From NCBI GenBank assembly GCA_943330455.2, contig CALQHT020000015.1, positions 1-40,481 on the forward strand: a DNA stretch of 40,481 bases, given 5' to 3'. The notes below the pieces were generated by a model. It made no database searches. It worked only from the letters and a program-made list of their open reading frames with translations, and was not told the origin of the DNA. The stretch is from Nitrosovibrio sp. Nv4. Lineage in GTDB: Bacteria > Pseudomonadota > Alphaproteobacteria > Acetobacterales > Acetobacteraceae. The stretch's first letter is position 1; each line of letters opens with the position of its first letter. Position numbers and translations under genes: made by a program. Below are positions 26,824 to 33,728 of the stretch, one piece after another.

Positions 26824-28236
26824 ATGACCCAAGGCTCCACTGCGATCCGTACCCGTTTTGCTCCCAGCCCGACCGGCCTGCTGCATATTGGCGGCGCCCG
26901 CACCGCGCTGTTCAACTACCTGTATAGCCGCCATGTCGGCGGTGCATTCCTGTTGCGGGTCGAAGACACCGACCGCGAACGCAGCACCGATGCCGCGACT
27001 CAGGTCATCCTGGAAGGGCTCGACTGGCTTGGGCTGACCCGGGACGAACAGACCGTGTTCCAGTCATCGCGCGCCGATCGCCATGCGGTGGTCGCTTATC
27101 AGCTCCTCGAAACCGGCAAGGCCTATCGCTGCTGGTGTTCGGCCGAAGAACTCCGCCAGATGCGGGAGCAGGCCGTCGCGGAAGGCCGCTCCCCGCGCTA
27201 TGACGGGCGCTGGCGCGATCGCGACCCGGCCGAGGCCCCGGCAGGGGTGAAGCCGTCGATCCGCCTGAAAGCCCCGCAGGAGGGCGAAACGGTGGTCGAG
27301 GACATGGTGCAAGGCACCGTCCGCGTCGCCAATGCCGAGATGGACGACATGATCATCCTGCGCAGCGATGGCACGCCGACCTATCTGCACGCGGTGGTGG
27401 TCGACGACCACGACATGGGCATCACCCATGTCATCCGCGGCGACGACCATCTGACCAACACGTTCCGCCAGGTGCAGATTTTCCAGGCCATGGGCTGGGA
27501 TCAGCCTCGGTTCGCGCATATCCCGCTGATCCACGGCGCGGACGGCGCGAAACTGTCCAAGCGCCACGGCGCCGTTTCGGTCCTGGAATTCCGGGAGCAG
27601 GGGTTCCTGCCCGAAGCCGTCTGCAACTACCTGTTGCGGCTGGGCTGGTCGCATGGCGACCTGGAGGTGGTGGATCGTGACGAAGCCATCCGCCTGTTCG
27701 ACATCGCCGACGTCAACCGCGGCGCGTCCCGGATGGATTATGCCAAGCTGACCAACCTGAATGGCATCTATATCCGCAAGGCCGACGACGACCGCCTGAC
27801 GCGGGAGGTGCTGCAGCGCCTGGCGCATCAGCCTCATCTGTCGCTGGGGAGCATCGCCGCCGCCCGCATTCGCGCGCTGATGCCGCAGTTGAAGGAACGC
27901 GCGAAGACCCTGGTCGAACTGGCCAACGCCGCGGCCTTCCTGGCCCGCGTGGTGCCCTTGCCGATGGAACCAAAGGCCGAGGCGCAACTCACCGCCGAGG
28001 CCAAACTGCTGCTGCGTGACGTGGGTTCGGCGCTGGGCGAGACGGATTTTACGGTCGCCGCGATCGATGCGGCGCTGCGTGGGTTTGCGGAGGCGACCGG
28101 ACGCAAATTGGGACAGGTGGCCCAACCGCTCCGCGCCGCTTTGACCGGCAGCACCGTCAGCCCGGGCATCGACGCCACAATCGCGGCACTCGGCCGGGAG
28201 GAAGCGTTGGCGCGGATTTCCGCTGCCGCGCGATAA
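26824..28236 (+). CDS. gltX: Glutamate--tRNA ligase
   Basis: A 470-residue class I aminoacyl-tRNA synthetase that charges tRNA with glutamate in the cytoplasm. The N-terminal catalytic core begins [20 protein letters not shown], quoted up to the HIGH-type motif HIGG (21-24). The KMSKS motif is KLSKRHG (243-249). [21 protein letters not shown] and a helical anticodon-binding C-terminus follow. The length is full for bacterial GluRS. Many alphaproteobacteria carry two GltX copies, one of which may charge tRNA-Gln for later amidation; which type this is cannot be decided here. Start chosen because the synthetase similarity begins within ten residues. A strong intrinsic terminator lies 114 bp downstream, after an FNR-type box. 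Confidence 0.97.
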
Positions 28237-28249
28237 TTGTTTCGCCCCT

Positions 28250-28263
28250 TTGATTCAGATCAA
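28250..28263. promoter_or_regulatory. Perfect FNR/FixK-type box
   Basis: TTGATTCAGATCAA matches the FNR/FixK/Anr consensus TTGAT-N4-ATCAA at all ten defined positions. Flanking CCCC (28245-28248) and GGGG (28265-28268) extend the symmetry to 24 bp. It lies 13 bp after the gltX stop codon. A -10-like hexamer CATAGT (28286-28291) is placed as in class II FNR promoters, where the box is centred about 41.5 bp before the transcription start, predicted near 28298. FNR-type regulators activate such promoters when oxygen is low. Confidence 0.7.
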
Positions 28264-28297
28264 TGGGGAACCCCGCGGTTCTCCGCATAGTCCGTTT

Positions 28298-28382
28298 CGA
28301 GGCGCCAGGGCCCTGTCCTTGGCATCTCTCTTGGACTCCTCCCCAAACTTGGCGATGCCCGCGAAGGCATCGCCTTTTTTTG
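28298..28382 (+). ncRNA. Candidate FNR-controlled small RNA of about 85 nt
   Basis: The 5' end is predicted from the FNR-type box and -10 hexamer, and the 3' end from the intrinsic terminator, so the transcript would be about 85 nt. A 5' stem pairs GCCAGG (28304-28309) with CCTTGGC (28317-28323). A single-stranded linker follows that contains CTCCTCCCC (28336-28344), complementary to Shine-Dalgarno sequences. The terminator stem closes the RNA. Promoter box, short unstructured C-rich seed and T-tailed terminator are the standard layout of a trans-acting bacterial small RNA. I know of no named family that it matches. Alternatives: the box drives the downstream membrane-protein gene by read-through, or the terminator serves gltX only. 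Confidence 0.55.
28351..28381 (+). terminator. Strong Rho-independent terminator
   Basis: A perfect 9-bp stem, GGCGATGCC (28351-28359) with GGCATCGCC (28366-28374), has a 6-nt CGCGAA loop and is followed by seven T. This is the clearest intrinsic terminator in the window. It ends transcription from gltX and would form the 3' end of the candidate small RNA. Confidence 0.9.
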
Positions 28383-28471
28383 TCCGGGGCAAAAACACAA
28401 ACGGTTGTTTACGAAATCTGAACCAATAGGGGGGTAGTTGCGGGTCGGTGAAGGACAGGAGTGCGCAAAAA

Positions 28472-28954
28472 ATGCGAGCGAAAGACCAAGGCTCGATTGG
28501 GTCGATGATCGCCCCGCTGGTCGGTTTGAGTGTGGGACTGCTGGTCCTGGGCGGCTCCATCGAGATAGCCCGTATGGCAGAGCAACTCGGCCCCAAAGTC
28601 GGCGATCAGGTGGCATTCGGCTTGGATGCCCGCTCCCAAATTGCCAGCCAGGAGACTCTGGCCGTCACGCGCGCCGATGGTTCGCCCTGCCGGTTGGACA
28701 TTGCCATGATGCAGAAATCCGGCGGTAGCCTGATCGTGGAGGAACGTGGGCCGGGTCCACAGCGCATGTACCGGATCCATTGGTCGGGGCGAAACACCGC
28801 GGCGGATGACGGCAATTGTGGTGCGTCGGTGGATTTACGGTTGAACGATGGGCAGATCGCGACTCTGGCCGAGGCCGCGGGGGGCTATGGCCTTGTCCGC
28901 CGGCGTTTGGTGCTGTCGACACCTTGGGCCACGGCTGGGGCTTCCGTGCCCTGA
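28472..28954 (+). CDS. Conserved-looking hypothetical protein with one N-terminal membrane helix
   Basis: A 160-residue protein I do not recognise. A short basic N-terminus (MRAKDQGS) precedes one hydrophobic helix at about residues 12-33 (IAPLVGLSVGLLVLGGSIEIA, given as one motif region). The remaining 125 residues are probably periplasmic, with two cysteines (near GSPCRLD and GNCGAS) that could form a disulfide. No lipobox or catalytic motif is seen. The ATG at 28472 has AGGAG ten bases upstream; a GTG 24 bases earlier is possible. It lies 90 bp after the terminator and about 209 bp after the FNR-type box, so it may have its own promoter. It converges with the ArsR-type gene. Confidence 0.65.
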   Translation: MRAKDQGSIGSMIAPLVGLSVGLLVLGGSIEIARMAEQLGPKVGDQVAFGLDARSQIASQETLAVTRADGSPCRLDIAMMQKSGGSLIVEERGPGPQRMYRIHWSGRNTAADDGNCGASVDLRLNDGQIATLAEAAGGYGLVRRRLVLSTPWATAGASVP

Positions 28955-32492: not shown

Positions 32493-32618
32493 CGACCGAG
32501 GCTCCCTACCGACTTCATGGCTCAATGTACCCGAACCCGCCGCCAAAAACCACAATCCCGCGCCACAGCCCTCCGCCGATTGTCTTAACCCCCCGAACCG
32601 TCTATCGCGACCGCCTGA

Positions 32619-33728
<1,110 letters not shown>

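Follow-up and report, generated by a model that had tools for sequence, protein, structure and literature searches.

What is encoded in the short gap behind gltX in this genome, which signal would switch it on and what would its product do? The window, by which we mean the whole stretch of 40,481 nucleotides that was analysed, belongs to a 6.48-Mb genome in 470 contigs from an uncultured relative of the vinegar bacteria. A sequence-only reading had proposed an oxygen-responsive small RNA between gltX and a gene of unknown function, and the elements that it named are indeed flanked by these two genes. The features of the locus, all on the + strand, are as follows.

26824–28236, +: gltX, glutamate--tRNA ligase (TIGR00464, 497 bits; cut-off 290), the upstream neighbour, outside the RNA unit
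28250–28263, +: FNR/FixK-type box TTGATTCAGATCAA, by sequence and by its presence at all 18 distinct loci
28286–28291, +: −10 element CATAGT, positions −12 to −7
28298–28381, +: predicted small RNA of 84 nt with three stem-loops (stable fold, shared by relatives and covarying; RF00519 match)
28299–28328, +: stem-loop 1, variable in sequence and conserved in fold
28331–28346, +: stem-loop 2, UUGG[ACUCCUCC]CCAA, with the anti-Shine-Dalgarno segment CTCCTCCCC (28336–28344)
28351–28381, +: stem-loop 3 and T tail, an intrinsic terminator
28448–28954, +: ORF of 168 aa, function unknown, outside the RNA unit

Searches of Pfam and NCBIfam gave no match for the product of the 28448–28954 ORF. The small ORFs that span the stretch (28250–28429 on the + strand and 28255–28596 on the − strand) had no match in Pfam.

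The box and the core promoter are conserved at 18 loci

We searched the 33 genomes of the genus with a pattern that does not contain the box (TTGGACTCCTCCCNNAC, one mismatch allowed). The core TTGGACTCCTCCCCAAA (CCCCAAA) was found in 18 of the 33 genomes, in one of them on two contigs; that the other 15 lack the RNA had been overlooked in the first reading. The 18 loci exclude L062 and L065, which repeat L015 letter for letter (two contigs of a single genome), and L075, which lies on the same contig as L007 and ends 12 nt before the core. Three core look-alikes, L128 (G006), L125 (G008) and L137 (G025), were rejected: they have neither AAAC nor a terminator, and only a box with 2 mismatches. 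Further matches with one mismatch in G001, G025, G028 and G032 were also rejected, the 3' part of the RNA being absent behind them; L113 and L123 were read in context, and L116, L121 and L135 were judged on 17 letters alone.

At every one of the 18 loci, TTGAT-N4-(A/G)TCAA is present 62–72 nt before TTGGAC (ATCAA in 10, GTCAA in 8). The loci were aligned gap-free from the box and conservation was scored by column. The box, the −10 element and the start stood out as sharp footprints: TTGAT and TCAA are invariant, as are C at −12 and A at −11; T at −7 is kept in 16/18, and CGA occupies +1 to +3 (C in 16/18; G and A invariant). In the spacer between the box and the −10 element, 20 of the 22 positions are below 0.8 bit; the exceptions are a G two bases past the box (16/18) and one further column at 0.87 bit. 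The perfect TTGAT-N4-ATCAA box and the −10-like CATAGT at class II spacing that had been proposed are both present, and the layout of a class II FNR promoter is seen in the sequence as well as in the footprint, with the box centred at −41.5. The predicted start at 28298, 41.5 nt after the box centre, is inferred from this spacing together with the conserved CGAG.

A scan of the neighbourhood in the window found no sigma-70 promoter and returned three terminator sites against 1.4 expected, so the promoter and terminator calls rest on the comparison of loci and not on the scan. The perfect TTGAT-N4-ATCAA box occurs at 17 sites in the 6.48-Mb genome, and the reversed control pattern at none. When 115-nt windows are drawn at random from the fetched loci, about 1.9% contain a box with at most one mismatch, a rate that is raised by loci fetched for their boxes.

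The predicted RNA has three hairpins, two of which covary

The sequence-only reading had put the transcript at ~85 nt with a 5' stem. We found an 84-nt segment (28298–28381) that folds into three hairpins at −37.8 kcal/mol (z −4.18; 0/200 shuffles as good), and three hairpins were also obtained when each of the 18 sequences was folded singly. The first stem was more stable than its own shuffles in all 18 (mean z −3.16, range −1.94 to −5.33).

Covariation was counted on the 11 of 18 sequences that have a long first stem. Among these, 98.1% of 262 cells pair, and 8 pairs have both partners changed, where shuffles give 2.7; 0/500 shuffles reached this level. Five of these changes are in stem 1 (of its 11 pairs) and three in the 9-bp stem of the terminator. 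The count of further pair types was unexceptional in the same 11 sequences (40/500 shuffles as high). Over all 18 sequences, RNAalifold detected 6 pairs in which both bases had changed. The T-tailed terminator proposed earlier is a G+C-rich hairpin (28351–28374) whose stem covaries, followed by seven T (28375–28381).

Stem-loop 2 is invariant in the 18 aligned sequences, which puts its pairing beyond the reach of covariation. The segment CTCCTCCCC had been described as single-stranded. This holds for ACUCCUCC, a loop closed by a 4-bp stem (UUGG/CCAA); the last two C of the segment are in the stem in the predicted fold. Taken over the relatives, the box and the loop are conserved, as the first reading had required, at 18/18 loci from a box-free search, and stem 1 and the terminator covary in the 11/18 sequences counted; with the evidence for a separate unit given below, this supports the interpretation as a small RNA.

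The unit was found in one clade of the genus and in a second genus

In a GltX tree covering 30 of the 33 genomes, a branch with 100/100 support has all 18 genomes with the RNA on the same side. The conservation described above therefore covers a limited depth. We read by eye the gltX loci of 12 genomes without the RNA and found no such unit behind gltX.

Of 397 genomes in the family, 10 have the box and the core at the right distance by exact patterns, which drifted forms would escape (reversed control, 0); these are 8 of the 13 sampled from the same genus and 2 of 2 from genus g52. A class-wide search with a looser core, equally an exact pattern, gave 1 of 385 genomes, the genome of the window itself. 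The unit is again behind gltX in g52, where one genome (G083) has two gltX-RNA units, L102 and L112, each with a perfect box. Two of the three g52 copies fold as expected, and L112 lacks the open anti-Shine-Dalgarno loop. These three loci are no evidence for the box, because the pattern that found them requires it.

Relatives of the 28448–28954 ORF were observed behind the RNA only in L003, L016 and L018 and in the three g52 loci, hence in both genera. At L016 and L018 this relative is behind the RNA although gltX is elsewhere.

FNR is the most likely regulator at the box

The genome of the window has an FNR-like gene with a perfect box upstream. Its protein carries CAHCSARQFSVC, of the form CX2CX7C, and its best NCBIfam match is FnrL at 156.6 bits, below the model cut-off of 300. 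A perfect box is also present upstream of the gene for 5-aminolevulinate synthase; hemA is commonly an FNR target in bacteria of this class. The genes adjoining several other perfect boxes of the genome were uninformative. A perfect box (L095, G000:C72:22176) also lies between genes for a CBS-BON protein and a sulfatase-modifying-factor-like protein on opposite strands.

Of the 18 RNA-bearing genomes, 16 encode a full-length FNR orthologue with the Cys motif, as against 2 of the 15 that lack the RNA (G008 and G025). In 11 further RNA-less genomes (all but G002 and G023), the best Crp/Fnr match was read and the Cys motif was absent. The box is upstream of fnr for 12 of the 16 full-length orthologues of the clade and for neither of those in G008 and G025. 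As all 18 genomes form one clade, the co-occurrence of RNA and FNR counts as a single event and is weak evidence. In G028 (L209, contig C111) we observed just the C-terminal 82 residues of an FNR orthologue, its DNA-binding part, at 32538–32780 in the middle of a contig of 46,976 bases.

The same small RNA gene could instead be read by FixK, in a cascade of the FixLJ type, or by another Crp/Fnr protein. FixK is a real rival because contig C20 encodes, next to FixJ-like response regulators, a Crp/Fnr protein that lacks the N-terminal Cys motif, and a perfect box is present in this region (G000:C20:25461–27028; L080, L090). G022 also fits this alternative: it keeps the RNA and the box, our search found no FNR orthologue there, and the Crp/Fnr protein that it did find lacks the Cys motif. 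The distribution of the full-length Cys-motif protein speaks against FixK, subject to the same confounding by a single clade. We consider control by FixK or a similar protein unlikely, and FNR remains our preferred regulator.

The RNA is related to alphaR8

At curated thresholds, Rfam detected nothing in the window. A permissive search of 351 bases, up to E 5, matched one family alone, RF00519 (suhB/MmgR), at 28321–28389 (29.5 bits, E 2.5e-4; cut-off 41), over positions 1–77 of the 77 of the model. When 20 loci of the window's type were searched (58,855 bases), 16 likewise matched RF00519 (24.7–36.2 bits, E 1 or better), and none of the 20 reached the cut-off. The CcsR1 family (RF02791), whose motif CCUCCUCCC has a counterpart of like kind in the loop of the window RNA, gave a weak match at L018 (26.1 bits; cut-off 65.3) and none at the other 19 of the 20. 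L022, L102 and L112 matched neither family.

Two canonical RF00519 copies are present elsewhere in the genome (60.9 and 52.8 bits). Among 145 relatives, 124 have a match at E 0.1 or better and 101 one above the cut-off, in a survey that is noisy, since 6 of 14 control genomes also matched (1 above the cut-off). The canonical copies read TTGGACGTTTCCTCCCTAAACTTGG and the window's type TTGGACTCCTCCCCAAACTTGG: the two share their flanks, and the window's type is shorter by three bases and has a core richer in C, which makes the window RNA a paralogue of the canonical copies.

The alphaR8 family, with MmgR of Sinorhizobium meliloti and SisA-D of Caulobacter crescentus, shares with the window RNA its three hairpins and a Rho-independent terminator as the last of them. 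The C-rich anti-Shine-Dalgarno segment of the window RNA is bounded by CUUGGAC and AAACUUGG, the flanks also seen in canonical copies from these genomes. Where alphaR8 has UUGGAC-GUUUCCUCCCU-AAAC, the window RNA has UUGGAC-UCCUCCCC-AAAC. The 10-mer UUUCCUCCCU, given for alphaR8 in the accessible part of PMC12559287, is absent from the window RNA, which has ACUCCUCCCC at this place, as do the 17 other aligned sequences. The main alphaR8 copy is reportedly located by the gene for N-formylglutamate amidohydrolase, and the window's type by gltX (15/18); a paralogue need not keep the linkage. By sequence comparison, then, the RNA is a diverged paralogue of alphaR8 with a shortened, C-richer anti-Shine-Dalgarno segment, a kinship that the first reading had not noticed.

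The promoter also differs. MmgR is described in the available portion of PMC7143759 as being under NtrC and AniA, whereas the window RNA has an FNR-type class II promoter. For the Caulobacter siblings, what could be seen of PMC12559287 reports unlike promoters, with no shared motif among the four. In our fetched loci, none of 45 canonical copies has a box within 120 nt, even at 2 mismatches. With the box at 18/18 loci of the window's type against 0/45 canonical copies, we ruled out a chance co-occurrence of box and RNA. The box-less canonical copies often stand in tandem, ~170 to 270 nt apart (G001:C1:24884 and 25057; G003:C113; G009:C22; G011:C66; G027:C455), and G010:C4 has three copies.

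Ribosome-binding sites as candidate targets

According to the accessible text of PMC12559287, Caulobacter SisA represses many targets via the anti-Shine-Dalgarno 10-mer of the family, and its direct pairing with one target was shown by compensatory mutation. By analogy, the window RNA would mask ribosome-binding sites. In an exploratory search of the same genome, GGGGAGGAG-N1-9-ATG was found at 9 sites, against 2 for the control, and five of the 9 precede open frames of >200 aa, including clpX and accD. Duplex energies were in favour of the window's type for 4 of these five frames and of the canonical type for 1. These sites show only that suitable ribosome-binding sites exist and are compatible with targeting.

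The RNA could also act as a sponge or decoy that titrates another G-rich small RNA, or Hfq, rather than repressing mRNAs. The sponge CrfA, a G/A-rich small RNA, counters SisA and pairs with the core of SisA-D in the available part of PMC12559287, and a C-rich loop could be a decoy for such an RNA. The same source has SisA itself repressing mRNAs, and we hold the decoy role to be improbable. Repression of mRNAs is the function that we prefer.

The RNA gene is a unit of its own

At 15 of the 18 loci, the unit is directly behind gltX, and in the window the box lies 13 nt after the gltX stop codon, as might be expected of a 3' UTR or terminator of gltX from which the RNA is released by processing. 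However, in G004, G007 and G028 the unit and gltX are on different contigs, with the box, the −10 element and the fold kept, and a promoter footprint is expected only for an RNA with its own start; processing from gltX is thus very improbable. An attenuator or leader of the downstream gene, suggested by the same-strand ORF that begins 66 nt after the T run in the window, is if anything still less probable, as the next gene is convergent at L005 (chromate transporter) and L008 (cation efflux), and by eye six more loci (L004, L006, L007, L011, L013 and L072) have the same protein tails in convergent orientation. The three loci away from gltX and the several that face a convergent gene lead us to reject both a gltX 3' UTR and a leader as explanations of the RNA.

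A proposed low-oxygen circuit and its meaning

The comparison makes a strong case for a conserved small RNA gene of the alphaR8 kind with an FNR-type promoter. We have good confidence that it is an independent gene under a Crp/Fnr activator, most likely FNR, that would be induced at low oxygen and would repress mRNAs via their ribosome-binding sites. At low oxygen, the activator, most likely the genome's own [4Fe-4S]-type FNR, would bind the box at −41.5 and, to judge from layout and conservation, recruit RNA polymerase in the class II manner. The resulting RNA of ~84 nt would end at the intrinsic terminator. Its C-rich loop may then, probably aided by Hfq, pair with ribosome-binding sites rich in G, and the translation of a set of mRNAs would be repressed, both steps being modelled on Caulobacter SisA. 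The outcome would be a set of siblings in which this RNA is gated by oxygen and the others have no box.

The proposed logic resembles that of FnrS of enteric bacteria, an FNR-activated small RNA that represses mRNAs at low oxygen (PMC8139620, as far as its text was available). FnrS has another fold and another seed and belongs to another class of bacteria, and no FnrS-family match was obtained among 4227 Rfam models, in keeping with the earlier remark that the two RNAs are unrelated in sequence. PcrZ of Rhodobacter sphaeroides is also an alphaproteobacterial low-oxygen small RNA, likened here by description only. The accessible part of the same source has it depending on PrrA and FnrL, with FnrL control that may be indirect, whereas the window RNA has the box in its core promoter. 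The literature searched contained no FNR-controlled alphaR8 RNA; the phylogenetic survey of the family (Lagares 2016) could list one.

Several alphaR8 siblings per cell are common. We lean slightly towards the view that in this Acetobacteraceae lineage one housekeeping-type alphaR8 copy, with its anti-Shine-Dalgarno segment shortened and enriched and with direct class II FNR control, became a brake on translation dedicated to low-oxygen conditions, independent of its enteric counterpart FnrS. It would be an FnrS-like circuit made from an unrelated RNA. Because one sibling type has both a conserved input signal and a conserved change in the pairing segment, signal and target choice may be tested apart from each other in this family.
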